In this document: positions 3,056 through 14,514 of the stretch, in pieces
Layout: every line of letters begins with the position of its first letter
Numbering within the stretch: position 1 is the first letter of the stretch
NCBI GenBank assembly: GCA_937911395.1
Contig: CALDSI010000325.1
Location: 1-44,029 of the forward strand
Origin: an uncultured Labrenzia sp.
GTDB taxonomy: Bacteria; Pseudomonadota; Alphaproteobacteria; Rhizobiales; Stappiaceae
Length of the DNA stretch: 44,029 bases
Direction: 5' to 3'
The notes under the pieces: model-generated
The model's database searches: none
What the model was told of the DNA's origin: nothing
What the model saw: only the letters and a program-made list of their open reading frames with translations
Program-made: the position numbers and the translations under genes

Positions 3056-3904
3056 TTACTCCGATACTCCGTTTTCACGTGCTGTCTTGTAGTCTTTGAA
3101 CAACGTCAGAATTTCCGCAGCCGTTTCCTCAATCGACCGGCGCGTCACGTCAATCAGCGGCCAATTGTGTTCCGAACACAGGCGCCGGGTCATGTTGATC
3201 TCCCGGGAAATCTCTTTCCGATCAACATACTGATCGTTATAACCTTCTGAATTTAATGATAAAACTCTGTTCCGGCGGATCTGTTGGATCCGTTCTGCAG
3301 AGGCGATCAATCCCACCACCATCGGGTTCTTCAAGGATTTGACGCTTTCCGGAAGCGGAATGTCCGGAACCAGCGGCACATTTGCCGCCTTGATGCCGCG
3401 GTTCGCAAGATAAATGCATGTCGGTGTTTTTGAGGTTCTCGAAATACCCAAAAGCACGATGTCGGCGGACTCCAGGTCGTCCCAAATCTGCCCGTCGTCA
3501 TGCATCATGGTGTAGTTCAGCGCTTCCATCCGGCTGAAATACTCCGCATCCATTTCATGCTGACCACCGATGCGGTGGGTCTGCGTAACATTCAAATAGG
3601 ATTGAAAGACCGCGAAAACCGGATCCAGAATGTTGACGAATGGCGTTCCCAATTCGCGGCACTTTTGTTCCAGCCTTTGAGCAATTTCCTCGTCCACCAA
3701 TGTGTAGAGAACAATTCCCGGGGCTTTTTCAATTTCACTGATCACCCGGTCAAGCTGTTTCTGGGAGCGCACCAACGGGTAAACATGCTCTATCTCCTGA
3801 ACATTTTCGTACTGAACCGTCGCGGCACGCGCGACCGTCATCAGGGTTTCGCCAGTGGAGTCCGAGACCAGATGCAGATGAAAGTAGTGTCTCGGATTAT
3901 TCAC
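3056..3904 (-). CDS. ppsR: pyruvate,phosphate dikinase / PEP synthase regulatory protein (DUF299 kinase/pyrophosphorylase)
   Basis: This family switches pyruvate phosphate dikinase or PEP synthase off and on by ADP-dependent threonine phosphorylation and Pi-dependent dephosphorylation. The protein has the N-terminal [10 protein letters not shown] motif and the P-loop-like [10 protein letters not shown] around residues 154-163, both diagnostic. Length (282 aa) is normal. It begins with GTG preceded by CTGGGGAT. The target enzyme is not in the window; in this group it is more often PPDK than PEP synthase. The gene is the left border of the presumed origin and corresponds to the RP001-type gene there. 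Confidence 0.92.
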
Positions 3905-3992
3905 GGTGTCATCCCCAGGGGTGTTGATGAGTTGGGAGTTGCTGTCATTGCTCTCTGCCTAGCACGGATTTATGCCCGCTCCGCCGATTTTA

Positions 3993-4008
3993 TTAACAAT
4001 GTCTAAAC
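3993..4008 (+). promoter_or_regulatory. CtrA-like site 1 in oriC
   Basis: TTAA-N7-TAAAC, one base off the CtrA consensus TTAA-N7-TTAAC. The same form recurs at 4102. CtrA blocks initiation at the Caulobacter origin; a similar role here is inferred. Confidence 0.4.
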
Positions 4009-4043
4009 GCCGGGAAACTGAAACCGGAATGGTTGTGAGGTTT

Positions 4044-4052
4044 TGTGGATCA
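4044..4052 (-). promoter_or_regulatory. DnaA-box-like 9-mer
   Basis: TGTGGATCA matches TGTGGATAA (complement of TTATCCACA) at 8 of 9 bases. Confidence 0.5.
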
Positions 4053-4101
4053 ACATGAGGCCTGTGACATTTCGACAGGCTATCCACCAACGCACAAATT
4101 C

Positions 4102-4117
4102 TTAACGAAAGGTAAAC
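4102..4117 (+). promoter_or_regulatory. CtrA-like site 2 in oriC
   Basis: TTAA-CGAAAGG-TAAAC, the same one-mismatch architecture as the motif at 3993, 109 bp away. Confidence 0.4.
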
Positions 4118-4229
4118 ATTTTTCTAAATCGCTGTAATTGCGCGCGAAATTTTGTTATCGACTCCTGGGGAGGAGTTAACGCGTGTTTGCTGCCGGATTT
4201 TTCCCTAAACAGTTATTGGAGTGACGGAT

Positions 4230-4238
4230 TGTGGATGA
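4230..4238 (-). promoter_or_regulatory. DnaA-box-like 9-mer
   Basis: TGTGGATGA matches TGTGGATAA at 8 of 9 bases and sits about 25 bp from the AT-rich tract. Confidence 0.5.
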
Positions 4239-4260
4239 AAAAAGATCCCGGTAATCCACG

Positions 4261-4310
4261 TTCTAATATAAAAAACAGATTCAAATATAGAATCTTATTA
4301 GATTTGAAAT
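4261..4310. other. AT-rich tract, candidate DNA unwinding element
   Basis: This 50-bp stretch is almost entirely A/T, in contrast to its GC-rich surroundings. It holds two GANTC sites as an inverted pair (GATTC at 4278, GAATC at 4290, 7 bp between). It ends at the hemE leader, so it may also serve as the hemE promoter region. Confidence 0.5.
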
Positions 4311-4329
4311 GTGGGAAAGGCGCGACCGT

Positions 4330-5358
4330 ATGAAGTCCAAAGACAGAACCGTAATGCGGGTTCTCTCCGGAGAAAAGATCTGGCCACCTCCCATCTGGAT
4401 GATGCGTCAAGCCGGCCGTTATCTCCCCGAGTATCGGGAAGTCAGAGCCAAGGCGAAAAACTTTCTCGACTTCTGCTATTCCCCGGATCTCGCAACCGAG
4501 GTCACTCTCCAGCCGATCCGCCGCTATGGCTTTGATGCGAGTATTTTGTTCTCGGACATCTTCGTCGTGCCGGATGCAATCGGATATCCGGTCAGGTTCG
4601 AAGAAGGACGGGGGCCAGTTCTGGAACCTCTATCATCAGAACTGATCGACCGTCTCGAACAGGATAAGGCCGAGGATCATCTCAAACCGGTCATAGAAAC
4701 GGTTTCGCGCCTCAGAGCGGATCTGCCTGAAGAAACGACATTACTCGGCTTCTGTGGCGCTCCCTGGACAGTTGCCTGTTATTCGGTTGCCGGTCACACG
4801 ACACAGGATCAAGTAGCTGCTCGTGTTGGTGCTTACAAACGTCCGGATTTGATGCAGCGATTTATCGACGAGCTCATCACTGCGTCGATTGCCTATCTGA
4901 TCCGCCAATTGGATGCGGGCGCTGATGCGCTTCAAATCTTTGATACCTGGGCTGGTGTTCTGGATGATGCCGGGTTTCGCCGGTGGTGTATTGAACCGAC
5001 GCGCAAGATTGTCGACGGTGTAAAAGCAGCCCGGCCGGATGCCAAGATCATCGGTTTCCCGAAAGCCTCATCCGCTCGCATGCAAGCTTACATCAAGGGA
5101 ACAGGTGTGGATGCGGTTGGTTTCGACTGGACTGCACCGGACCATTTGGCATTGGAGATCCAGAAACACGTTCCAATCCAGGGCAATCTGGATCCGATGC
5201 GTCTCGTCGCTGGCGGCAAGGCATTGGAAGACGGTGTTCAGCACATCCTGAAGACGTTCGACAAAGGGCCGTTCATCTTCAATCTCGGCCATGGGGTTAC
5301 ACCGGATGCGGATCCGGAAAACGTGGCACGGATGGTTGAGATGGTGAAACAGGGATAA
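4330..5358 (+). CDS. hemE: uroporphyrinogen decarboxylase
   Basis: HemE decarboxylates the four acetate side chains of uroporphyrinogen III to give coproporphyrinogen III in haem synthesis. Diagnostic motifs are PIWMMRQAGRYLPEYRE near the N-terminus, where Arg binds substrate carboxylates, the FSDI motif with its catalytic Asp, and GFCGAPWT. The ORF opens at 4309, but ATG at 4330 follows GGAAAGG at suitable spacing and gives the usual MKSKDRTV start (342 aa). hemJ begins 3 bp after its stop, so the two form a haem operon. Confidence 0.96.
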   Translation: MKSKDRTVMRVLSGEKIWPPPIWMMRQAGRYLPEYREVRAKAKNFLDFCYSPDLATEVTLQPIRRYGFDASILFSDIFVVPDAIGYPVRFEEGRGPVLEPLSSELIDRLEQDKAEDHLKPVIETVSRLRADLPEETTLLGFCGAPWTVACYSVAGHTTQDQVAARVGAYKRPDLMQRFIDELITASIAYLIRQLDAGADALQIFDTWAGVLDDAGFRRWCIEPTRKIVDGVKAARPDAKIIGFPKASSARMQAYIKGTGVDAVGFDWTAPDHLALEIQKHVPIQGNLDPMRLVAGGKALEDGVQHILKTFDKGPFIFNLGHGVTPDADPENVARMVEMVKQG

Positions 5359-7352: not shown

Positions 7353-7384
7353 TCGTTTTATCTCACGATCGTTGTTATCGGTGG

Positions 7385-7420
7385 AGGCGTGATCCAGATT
7401 GGGTCACGCCTTTACCTTTT
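7385..7420 (+). terminator. Rho-independent terminator after rho
   Basis: An 11-bp stem AGGCGTGATCC/GGGTCACGCCT (one G-T wobble) with a 5-nt loop precedes TTTACCTTTT. Confidence 0.82.
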
Positions 7421-7429
7421 GTTAAGACA

Positions 7430-7445
7430 TGTTTCACGTGAATCC
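7430..7445 (+). promoter_or_regulatory. parS: parS-like site 1
   Basis: TGTTTCACGTGAATCC has 13 of 16 bases of the parS consensus TGTTTCACGTGAAACA. Its right edge forms a GAATC (GANTC) site. It lies in the rho-GNAT intergenic gap. Confidence 0.85.
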
Positions 7446-7468
7446 AGATTTAGATTCGGACCCGTTTT

Positions 7469-8041
7469 ATGACCCAAAACTTTCTCTTGGAAACAAAGCG
7501 GCTGATCTGCCGTAACTGGCAAGATGCTGATCTCGAACAATTTGCCCGGATGTGCGCTGACCCTCAGGTCATGCGGTATTTTCCCGAGCCACTCACCTAT
7601 GATCAAACCGCTGCTTTGATTGATAGGGCGAAGGCTAAGCAAGAACAGGATGGCTTTTGTTTTACGCCAGTGGAAACCAGGGACACATCTGAGTTTCTCG
7701 GGTTCATTGGCTTGAGTATTCCCGCCTACGCCAAGCCGCTTCCTTTTGGTCCCTGCGTTGAAGTTGGTTGGCGTTTGAAGCGCTCAGCCTGGGGGAAGGG
7801 TTACGCAAGTGAAGCTGCAACAGCCTGGCTTCGATTCGGTTTTGAAACCATCGGTCTTGAGGAAATCGTTTCCTTCACTGCAGAAACGAACATTCCATCT
7901 CAAAAGGTTATGGCGCGAATCGGTATGCGCAGGGATCCGGCGGATGACTTTCTTCACCCGATGCTTCCAGTTGGGCATGCACTTGCACATCATGTTTTGT
8001 ATCGGCTGGACCGCAAAACTTGGGCTAGCCGTCAGGTCTGA
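7469..8041 (+). CDS. GNAT-family N-acetyltransferase (RimJ/RimL type)
   Basis: The protein has the Acetyltransf_3-type layout. LETKRLICRNWQDADL opens it, EVGWRLKRSAWGKGYASEA is the motif-A acetyl-CoA pyrophosphate loop, and TAETNIPSQKVMARIGM is the C-terminal Asn/Ser segment. Such enzymes acetylate protein N-termini or small amines; the substrate cannot be told. It is a single gene between rho and mnmE, bracketed by parS-like sites. Confidence 0.85.
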   Translation: MTQNFLLETKRLICRNWQDADLEQFARMCADPQVMRYFPEPLTYDQTAALIDRAKAKQEQDGFCFTPVETRDTSEFLGFIGLSIPAYAKPLPFGPCVEVGWRLKRSAWGKGYASEAATAWLRFGFETIGLEEIVSFTAETNIPSQKVMARIGMRRDPADDFLHPMLPVGHALAHHVLYRLDRKTWASRQV

Positions 8042-8071
8042 CCAACGCAGAACTGCTAAAAACAGGTTTAA

Positions 8072-8087
8072 AGATTCACGTGAAACA
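8072..8087 (-). promoter_or_regulatory. parS: parS-like site 2
   Basis: Its complement reads TGTTTCACGTGAATCT, the same variant as site 1 in reverse orientation, with a GATTC at its left edge on the plus strand. Confidence 0.82.
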
Positions 8088-8146
8088 CAGATCCGCACGG
8101 TGACGGGTGTTCGGGAACCTGATACCGGAATTAACAGTCCGAAAAA

Positions 8147-8162
8147 TGTTTCACGTGAATCC
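8147..8162 (+). promoter_or_regulatory. parS: parS-like site 3
   Basis: TGTTTCACGTGAATCC, identical over 16 bp to site 1. The 8042-8475 gap holds three such sites and no gene I can support. Confidence 0.85.
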
Positions 8163-8277
8163 GAATTGATTCGGGTACGGATTGTTTTCGGGCCAGGCTC
8201 TGAAATTGCCAAGACTGCGATAAGAGCTCCATAATCCACGTACTCAATGGGCGATCTTTCTGACAGGCAAAGGCGCG

Positions 8278-8293
8278 TGATTCACGTGAAACA
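8278..8293 (-). promoter_or_regulatory. parS: parS-like site 4
   Basis: TGATTCACGTGAAACA, one mismatch from consensus. Its complement is TGTTTCACGTGAATCA, the same variant as sites 5 and 6. It contains GATTC. Confidence 0.88.
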
Positions 8294-8475
8294 GACATAC
8301 CTATTAATCGCTCAAACGATCTAGTTTGATTCGGCTCAGCAACGTCTTTCGGTTCCAAAACCGGAGAATTCCTCGAAGCTGTGTTCCGACCATGGACCAG
8401 GTTCCCCACCACCTTTCTAACGTTCGTGCTTCTTGATAAAGAGGCACCAAGGATACCTCTGAAACGGAAAGTTAT

Positions 8476-9827: not shown

Positions 9828-9843
9828 TGTTTCACGTGAATCA
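9828..9843 (+). promoter_or_regulatory. parS: parS-like site 5
   Basis: TGTTTCACGTGAATCA, starting 2 bp after the mnmE stop, with GAATC at its right edge. Confidence 0.86.
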
Positions 9844-9880: not shown

Positions 9881-9896
9881 TGTTTCACGTGAATCA
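9881..9896 (+). promoter_or_regulatory. parS: parS-like site 6
   Basis: TGTTTCACGTGAATCA, identical to site 5 and 53 bp from it in the same orientation, close to five helical turns. A further GATTC lies between them at 9864. The rest of the gap to mnmG shows no gene. Confidence 0.86.
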
Positions 9897-12003: not shown

Positions 12004-12659
12004 TGGGGCGTCCCGTGGTGTTGAACAGTTCTGGAGAGACTGTGTATAAGTTTGGGGATGTTTCACGTGAAACGTTGGATCGTCTCCAGATCTACGTGGA
12101 CTTGGTTTTGAAGTGGCAACCCGCACAAAACCTTATTGCTCCTTCAACAATTCCGGACATCTGGACCCGGCATGTGGCGGATAGCCTGCAAACGCAGTGG
12201 AGTTATCCAGAGGCGAAGGTCTGGGTCGATATCGGGAGCGGCGGCGGGTTTCCAGGTGTTGTGACGGCGATCCTTCTGGCGGACCAGCCGGATGCCCATG
12301 TGCACATGATCGAGAGCAATCAGCGCAAGGCGGCGTTCCTCCGGACCGCTTTGAGAGAGACCGGATCGAAAGGGACTGTCCATGCGGGCCGGATCGAATC
12401 GGTTGCGGAAGGGTGGACCCACGGTCCGGTAAATGCCGTTTCTGCGCGTGCCTTGGCTTCTTTGAAGTTGCTTTTTGAGCTTGCCAAGCCGTTTACAGCG
12501 CAAGGGGCAAAGGCTGTTTTCCACAAAGGTCAGGATTTTCGGCGCGAACTTGATGAAGTGTCTGACTCTTGGCAGTTCGATCTGGTAGAAAAGGAAAGTG
12601 TTGTTGATCCTTTGAGCCGGATGCTCCTTTTTTCAAATATTTTAGCCCGGTCAGAGTAA
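12003..12659 (+). CDS. rsmG: 16S rRNA (guanine527-N7)-methyltransferase RsmG (GidB)
   Basis: RsmG methylates G527 of 16S rRNA. The N-terminal VSRETLDRL segment, the RHVADSL motif and the SAM-binding VDIGSGGGFPG at 75-85 identify it. The VSRET codons coincide with a parS site, so the DNA encodes protein and a ParB site at once. Loss in other bacteria gives low-level streptomycin resistance. parA begins just after. Confidence 0.95.
   Translation: MGRPVVLNSSGETVYKFGDVSRETLDRLQIYVDLVLKWQPAQNLIAPSTIPDIWTRHVADSLQTQWSYPEAKVWVDIGSGGGFPGVVTAILLADQPDAHVHMIESNQRKAAFLRTALRETGSKGTVHAGRIESVAEGWTHGPVNAVSARALASLKLLFELAKPFTAQGAKAVFHKGQDFRRELDEVSDSWQFDLVEKESVVDPLSRMLLFSNILARSE
12059..12074 (+). promoter_or_regulatory. 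parS: parS site 7, inside rsmG
   Basis: TGTTTCACGTGAAACG matches the consensus at 15 of 16 bases. It is the only near-symmetrical site of the seven and the only one with no GANTC. It encodes the DVSRET stretch of RsmG. Confidence 0.92.
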
Positions 12660-12678
12660 CCAGGAAGGTGTGGTGGTA

Positions 12679-13503
12679 ATGAACATGCTTCCCGAAATGC
12701 CGCGTGTGCTTGCGCTCGCTAACCAGAAGGGCGGGGTTGGGAAAACCACCACGGCCATCAACCTTGGTACCGCGCTTGCCGCAATCGGGGAGAAAGTCCT
12801 CGTTATCGATCTTGATCCGCAGGGAAACGCCTCGACAGGTCTTGGGATCGAGCACCGTGACCGTGGCCTGTCAACCTATGAAATCCTGAGCGGCGATTGC
12901 TCAATGGACGAAGCGATCCGCGAAACCGCGGTTCAACGCTTGTGGGTGGCCCCGTCCACCATGGACCTTCTCGGCCTGGAGCTCGAAATTGCGTCGACCA
13001 GTGACCGGGCTTTCCGCCTGCGCAATGCGGTCGAAAACCTGACGCATTCTCGGCTGTTCAAGGAGATCGGCTTTACCTATGTCCTTGTGGACTGCCCACC
13101 GTCCTTGAACCTGCTTACGATCAACGCGCTGTCTGCAAGCCACTCGATCCTGGTTCCGCTGCAGTGCGAGTTCTTTGCGCTTGAGGGTCTGAGCCAGTTG
13201 CTGAGCACGGTCGAGCAAGTGAAATCTGCTTTGAACCCTGAACTTAGCATCCACGGCATCGTTTTGACGATGTATGACAGCCGGAACAATCTCTCCAGTC
13301 AGGTCGTTGCAGATGTGCGCGAAACGATGGGAGATGCCGTGTATGACACCATCATTCCGCGCAACGTCCGGATTTCCGAGGCACCGTCTTACGGTAAACC
13401 GGCGCTCCTTTATGATCTGAAATGTGCCGGAAGTCAGGCGTATCTCCGCCTAGCTTCTGAAATCATTCAGCGGGAGCGGCAGCTGCGCAGCGTGGCGGCC
13501 TAA
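12679..13503 (+). CDS. parA: chromosome partitioning ATPase ParA
   Basis: ParA binds DNA non-specifically as an ATP dimer and moves ParB-parS complexes. The deviant Walker A KGGVGKTT is at residues 17-24, followed by the VIDLDPQGN motif and the VDCPPS Walker B. The ORF track begins at GTG 12670. AGGAAGG at 12662-12668 is better spaced for ATG 12679, giving 274 aa. An upstream GTG remains possible. It sits with parB, rsmG and mnmG near the origin, the normal chromosomal arrangement. Confidence 0.96.
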   Translation: MNMLPEMPRVLALANQKGGVGKTTTAINLGTALAAIGEKVLVIDLDPQGNASTGLGIEHRDRGLSTYEILSGDCSMDEAIRETAVQRLWVAPSTMDLLGLELEIASTSDRAFRLRNAVENLTHSRLFKEIGFTYVLVDCPPSLNLLTINALSASHSILVPLQCEFFALEGLSQLLSTVEQVKSALNPELSIHGIVLTMYDSRNNLSSQVVADVRETMGDAVYDTIIPRNVRISEAPSYGKPALLYDLKCAGSQAYLRLASEIIQRERQLRSVAA

Positions 13504-13608: not shown

Positions 13609-14514
13609 ATGGCGGACAAGGACGTCAAAAACAAGCGGCTGGGCCGCGGTCTTGCAGCTCTCATTGGCGATTCAGCACCGGAGGCGTCTCCGGCACCTGA
13701 AAAAGTGGTTCGCGACAGCCGCAAGGTCCCGATCGAGCATCTCGAGCCAAACCCGCGCAACCCGCGTAAGACCTTCACAGAGAAGGATCTAGCGGACCTT
13801 TCCGAGTCTCTAAAAGCCAAAGGCATCGTGCAGCCGATCCTCGTTCGTCCGGCAGCTGGAAAAGCGAATCGGTTTGAGATCATTGCCGGTGAGCGGCGCT
13901 GGAGGGCCGCGCAACGGGCAGGGCTTCATGAAGCGCCGATCATCATCCGGGACGTCACGGATCAGGAAGCATTAGAGCTCGCAATTATCGAGAATGTGCA
14001 GCGGGCAGACCTCAATCCGATCGAAGAAGCGATGGGCTATGAGCAGCTGACTGCCGAATTCAGTTACAGCCAGGGGGAATTGGCGAAGGTCATCGGTAAA
14101 AGCCGGAGCCATGTTGCCAATACCATGCGGCTATTGAAGCTGCCGAATTCAGTCAAAGATTATCTAGCTGAGGGGCTTTTGACGGCTGGTCATGCGCGGG
14201 CGCTGATCACCGTTGATGATCCAGCGGCCTTGGCTGAACTGATCGTTGAAAAAGGCTTGACGGTGCGCGATGCGGAAAAGCTCGCTCAGGATCCCGATGC
14301 ACTGGCCAAGTTGAAGGGCGACAAAACCCCGACCGAAAAGCCGCAAAAGGACGCTGATACGAAAGCCTTGGAAAAGCGGCTGGCAGACACGTTGGGACTG
14401 AAAGTCACGGTCGGTCACAAGGCTGGCAAAGAGTCTGGCGATCTGAAGATCAAATACACGTCTTTGGAACAGCTCGATCAGATTTGCCGGCTTCTGGGCG
14501 TTGAAAACCGCTGA
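13609..14514 (+). CDS. parB: chromosome partitioning protein ParB (CTPase, parS-binding)
   Basis: ParB loads at parS and slides along DNA as a CTP-bound clamp. The N-terminal peptide KNKRLGRGLAALIG is the ParA-stimulating region. The CTP-binding motif is GERRWRAA at 94-101. A helix-turn-helix lies around 155-175 (SQGELAKVIGKSRSHV), and a C-terminal dimerisation domain ends the protein. Length (301 aa) is typical. Its likely targets are the seven parS-like sites upstream. Confidence 0.96.
   Translation: MADKDVKNKRLGRGLAALIGDSAPEASPAPEKVVRDSRKVPIEHLEPNPRNPRKTFTEKDLADLSESLKAKGIVQPILVRPAAGKANRFEIIAGERRWRAAQRAGLHEAPIIIRDVTDQEALELAIIENVQRADLNPIEEAMGYEQLTAEFSYSQGELAKVIGKSRSHVANTMRLLKLPNSVKDYLAEGLLTAGHARALITVDDPAALAELIVEKGLTVRDAEKLAQDPDALAKLKGDKTPTEKPQKDADTKALEKRLADTLGLKVTVGHKAGKESGDLKIKYTSLEQLDQICRLLGVENR

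Follow-up and report, generated by a model that had tools for sequence, protein, structure and literature searches.

The question raised by this locus is whether the 425-bp gap between ppsR and hemE (positions 3905-4329) is the place where replication of the chromosome starts, as a preliminary description had proposed. The gap lies in a window of 44,029 nucleotides, the whole stretch of DNA that was analysed, which is a stretch of one contig from a draft genome of 4.86 Mb in 563 contigs; those of its relatives that bear a name belong to Roseibium and Labrenzia. The two flanking genes are divergent as described, with ppsR on the minus strand from 3904 and hemE on the plus strand from 4330. To the left of ppsR we found maf, an aroE-like and a coaE-like frame and dnaQ, and to the right of hemE follow hemJ, rho, mnmE, mnmG, a rsmG/gidB-like frame, parA and parB. 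Profile searches back maf, dnaQ, hemJ, rho, mnmE, mnmG, parA and parB, and the identities of aroE, coaE and gidB are readings of the translated frames. This is the gene order of the Caulobacter/Rickettsia origin neighbourhood, which the preliminary description had recognised, and the pairing of hemE with COG1806 is as published (PMC1914354). The features discussed below are collected in Table 1.

Table 1 Features of the putative origin region and its surroundings, in window coordinates.
Feature	Position	Strand	Remark
Intergenic gap ppsR/hemE, almost certainly oriC	3905..4329		skew minimum of two relatives at orthologous gap; near-constant length
ppsR (COG1806/DUF299), left neighbour, start 3904	3056..3904	-	NCBIfam NF003742, 343 bits
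hemE, right neighbour	4330..5358	+	TIGR01464, 387 bits
CtrA-like TTAA-N7-TTAA (TTAACAATGTCTAAA)	3993..4007		1 mismatch; ≤1 mismatch in 33/46 orthologues
DnaA-box-like TGATCCACA	4044..4052	-	1 mismatch to TTATCCACA
Weak DnaA-box-like CTATCCACC	4080..4088	+	2 mismatches
CtrA-like TTAA-N7-TTAA (TTAACGAAAGGTAAA)	4102..4116		1 mismatch; ≤1 mismatch in 43/46 orthologues, perfect in 10
Weak DnaA-box-like TTATCGACT, overlapping GANTC at 4160	4155..4163	+	2 mismatches; conservation 0.89
DnaA-box-like TCATCCACA	4230..4238	-	1 mismatch; within strongly conserved block 4227-4261
DnaA-box-like TAATCCACG, facing AT-rich tract, best conserved box	4252..4260	+	mean column conservation 0.94, top 3% of gap
AT-rich tract, probable unwinding element	4261..4310		80% AT, top 0.025% of local 50-bp windows
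CcrM site GATTC in AT-rich tract	4278..4282		kept in 43/46 orthologues
CcrM site GAATC in AT-rich tract	4290..4294		kept in 46/46 orthologues
Predicted parS, hybrid with GANTC	7430..7445	+	
Predicted parS, hybrid with GANTC	8072..8087	-	
Predicted parS, hybrid with GANTC	8147..8162	+	
Predicted parS, hybrid with GANTC	8278..8293	-	
Predicted parS, hybrid with GANTC	9828..9843	+	
Predicted parS, hybrid with GANTC	9881..9896	+	
Predicted parS, canonical palindrome within gidB/rsmG-like coding frame	12059..12074		
parA	12670..13503	+	ParA/MinD-type ATPase matches (profile search)
parB	13609..14514	+	TIGR00180, 197 bits

Since the contigs of the draft could not be ordered and its own GC skew is readable only within the 44-kb window, we turned to the skew of relatives. 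Among the near-complete ones the closest is G006, which has a 5.30-Mb chromosome (contig of 5,300,256 bp) with a gap 94% identical to the one studied here, and 60 stretches of up to 20 kb each, 1.18 Mb in total, were taken from it. The skew was negative in every sample between 1.25 and 3.825 Mb, forming a uniform negative arm to 3.845 Mb, and positive in all those lying from 3.845 Mb across the contig ends to 1.145 Mb. In a contiguous profile of 355 kb the cumulative minimum was located at 3,845,058, which is 69 bp from the gap (3,845,127-3,845,552). The skew switches back between 1.145 and 1.25 Mb, at a distance from the gap of roughly half the 5.30 Mb, as expected for a terminus. In the complete chromosome of Labrenzia sp. 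THAF82 (NZ_CP045354.1, 6.395 Mb) a local minimum at 331,688 lies 582 bp from the start of the gap at 332,270, and the opposite switch, which is roughly half a chromosome from the gap, falls between 3.3 and 3.7 Mb; among its 20 samples, one at 2.1 Mb and one bordering the origin had near-zero skew. Within the window the minimum falls at 3842, at a distance of 63 bp from the gap. It is clear that the skew minimum expected here by the preliminary description is found at the orthologous gap in both relatives, at the resolution of about 1 kb that skew alone provides.

The same profiles bear on the possibility that the gap is nothing but a conserved divergent promoter region of ppsR and hemE, and that the real origin lies elsewhere, for instance beside dnaA. 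Divergent promoters would be conserved likewise, and replication starts next to dnaA in many bacteria. However, the dnaA gene of G006 is 333 kb from the gap and its second dnaA 1.09 Mb, with a skew switch at neither, and the skew of THAF82 also speaks against an origin of this kind, to which we give practically no chance. As a marker of the origin, dnaA is rejected by the skew profile of G006.

The content of the gap was then compared with chance expectation, scoring DnaA-box-like 9-mers against the E. coli consensus TTATCCACA. Two such 9-mers occur at no more than one mismatch, against a mean of 0.15 in shuffled sequences (P 0.004), and nine at no more than two mismatches, against a mean of 1.5, a count that was reached in 0 of 1000 shuffles; none of the boxes in the gap is a perfect match to the E. 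coli consensus. Across the 1.18 Mb of G006 only 6e-5 of all 425-bp segments attain the box count of the gap, and the DnaA-box maximum of the contiguous 355-kb stretch starts at 3,845,116, at the gap. The boxes read in the preliminary description are therefore beyond chance and form a local peak, and the AT-rich tract that it had listed with them is locally extreme (Table 1), in a gap with an overall AT content of 56% compared with approximately 44% in the surroundings. The T-to-G change in the TGATCCACA box at 4044 is like that of the moderate-affinity "G-box" described for the Caulobacter Cori (PMC4468827).

At this point an origin located nearby has to be weighed, such as one between rho and mnmE (about 7353-8475), an intergenic region with parS sites, which would leave the hemE gap as a mere divergent promoter region. 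GANTC and parS are dense at 7.4-8.3 kb, and to the limited resolution of the skew minima come shifts over about 20 kb in other genera (PMC1914354). Against such a neighbouring start, the minima of the window, G006 and THAF82 all lie on the ppsR side of the gap and not on the parS side, and the segment richest in DnaA boxes within 355 kb of G006 is the gap itself. We regard it as very improbable that the origin is in this neighbouring region instead of the gap between ppsR and hemE.

The gap was further compared with its orthologues, a set of 46 distinct gaps mostly from Roseibium and Pannonibacter, plus Breoghania and Pseudovibrio. Their identity to the gap of the window lies between 43 and 98% (median 69%), and their length is 420 to 444 bp; this near-constant length despite such divergence suggests that the spacing of the sites is constrained. 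The strongest conserved block is found at 4227-4261 (GATTGTGGAT...TAATCCACG); after it, within the AT-rich tract, comes AAAAAACAGATTCAAATA. CtrA-like motifs and GANTC sites had also been listed for the gap, and both stand in part. By count alone the two imperfect CtrA-like sites are not significant (P 0.08 against shuffles), which makes them weak in this sequence taken alone, but they are conserved in 33 and 43 of the 46 orthologues, and conservation is higher in their half-sites than in the spacers (0.81 vs 0.68 at 3993, and 0.90 vs 0.78 at 4102). We therefore treat them as predicted CtrA sites that are only moderately supported. The three GANTC sites are present and conserved in position, the one at 4160 being kept in 41 of 46 orthologues and those at 4278 and 4290 as given in Table 1, but an excess of GANTC in the gap was rejected, the number being within chance (P 0.19, shuffles). 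The CcrM sites at 4278-4294 in the AT-rich tract adjoin the last DnaA boxes. No IHF-like site was found in the gap at one mismatch or less to WATCAANNNNTTR, the E. coli consensus, which may not be that of this species.

Origins at this position have been published before. The Cori of Caulobacter crescentus lies between hemE and COG1806 and measures 404 bp, and Rickettsia origins of 383-396 bp, 384 bp in Rickettsia prowazekii, lie between the same genes (PMC1914354). Cori contains weak G-boxes, W-boxes and CtrA sites (PMC4468827), and the gap resembles it in flanking genes, in length (425 bp compared with 404 bp), in being AT-rich relative to the genome, and in its weak DnaA boxes, including the TGATCCACA type, its CtrA-like sites and its GANTC sites. 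In contrast to Cori with its five CtrA sites, the gap has two conserved CtrA-like sites, and no IHF-like site was found in it. The origin of R. prowazekii shares the flanking genes and the approximate length but is far more AT-rich (82.6% compared with 56%), and whereas GANTC is conserved in the gap, Rickettsia branched off before CcrM is inferred to have entered the Alphaproteobacteria, which was after the divergence of the Rickettsiales (PMC3973325). By its position between hemE and COG1806, its skew switch, its DnaA boxes and its AT content, the gap fits the hemE type of origin (Cori type).

Collectively, the skew switch in two relatives, the peak of DnaA boxes, the conserved layout and length and the cluster of parS sites described below leave us in little doubt that the probable origin of the preliminary description is indeed the single bidirectional chromosomal oriC, of the type of Caulobacter Cori and the Rickettsia hemE origins. 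Judged from the arrangement of the sites, DnaA would bind several boxes, most of them weak, in an array that ends at the conserved inverted pair 4230-4260, and would open the adjoining AT-rich tract on the hemE side. CtrA would probably be a competitor of DnaA at 4102, and perhaps also at 3993, and the CcrM sites in the AT-rich tract would become hemimethylated when the fork passes. ParB would load at the parS sites 3-8 kb away and move the new origins apart.

The genome to which the window belongs encodes two full-length DnaA proteins that score over the family cut-off, at G000:C17:36913-38349 (L111) and G000:C330:11027-12439 (L112). At least two full-length DnaA proteins are found in 33 of 37 Roseibium genomes, while none of 24 genomes sampled from the other families of this order has two. 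As read by eye, the DNA-binding helices of the two proteins are near-identical and both proteins retain the Walker A and B motifs, and for this reason both could bind the same boxes; the ATPase domain of the second DnaA (L112) has diverged. One Roseibium genome (G016) apparently has three full-length DnaA genes on one contig (C1:34-1449, 1133427-1134866 and 4909991-4911370).

The preliminary description had also placed parS and parAB close to the gap. Seven near-matches to TGTTTCACGTGAAACA are located 3.1-7.7 kb to the right of it, compared with 0.2 expected in the whole window, and parA and parB end 9.2 and 10.2 kb from the gap, in agreement with that claim. By their sequence and their clustering near the origin together with parAB, the seven near-matches are predicted to be chromosomal parS sites. 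In six Roseibium genomes no exact GTTTCACGTGAAWC site is farther than about 9 kb from the gap. In some relatives one further hybrid parS site occurs on the other side of the gap, that of ppsR (L034 11833 / G061:C1:330424, and G034:C1:4210801).

All predicted parS sites except the copy within the gidB-like frame are asymmetric, with one half reading GTTTCAC and the other GATTCAC, so that each of these six contains exactly one CcrM (GANTC) site. GANTC is approximately three-fold depleted in the window (1-44029; 71 sites compared with 232 expected from shuffles), which makes the six inside parS a notable share. At 31 named Roseibium loci, belonging to related genomes that are not independent samples, we counted 151 hybrid, 1 double and 28 canonical parS copies, each genome having roughly one canonical copy, which sits at the gidB position. 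With a free choice of the second base in each half, one would expect many canonical and double forms outside gidB, and both are almost absent. Among 150 genomes of the order Hyphomicrobiales GTTTCACGTGAATC is present in 69, compared with 19 for the variant with G or C at that base. In a phylum-wide sample it occurs in 21 of 41 Hyphomicrobiales, in 0 of 72 genomes from the remaining orders of Alphaproteobacteria and in 7 of 186 others, and the canonical GTTTCACGTGAAAC occurs in 220 of the 299 genomes.

The genome from which the window comes has a gene for a CcrM-type methylase (N6_N4_Mtase + RAMA). We judge it unlikely that the presence of CcrM alone is the cause of the hybrid parS, because CcrM has been described as conserved in most Alphaproteobacteria (PMC3973325) although the hybrid is found in none of the 72 genomes from the other orders of this class. 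Most simply, the ParB of this lineage may instead tolerate an A at this base. Methylation near parS is no new idea in itself, since a measurement of GANTC methylation at "the parS locus" exists for Caulobacter, where extra methylase left it unaffected (PMC5172544); a search of the open literature available to the analysis gave no match to the hybrid parS sequence string. A more far-reaching idea, which we put forward tentatively and consider rather unlikely, is that the centromere itself serves CcrM as a target in Roseibium and in some of the Hyphomicrobiales, and that the methylation state could control ParB loading or re-initiation. Each non-coding parS would then keep one canonical half and one methylatable half, GTTTCAC and GATTCAC, respectively. 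If this idea is true, the passage of the fork would turn the origin, at the strictly conserved CcrM sites of the unwinding tract, and the centromere hemimethylated together.

As an origin the gap between ppsR and hemE is of an ordinary, known kind; less ordinary are the methylatable parS sites and the second DnaA that accompany it in this account. The result locates the origin in a genus from which many marine isolates and draft genomes are at hand. A known origin allows estimates of replication rate (peak-to-trough) and the correct rotation of assemblies, where numbering from dnaA misplaces the origin because the dnaA copies of the relatives are far from it. Finally, the methylatable parS sites and the second DnaA raise questions on the timing of initiation and segregation in the Hyphomicrobiales.
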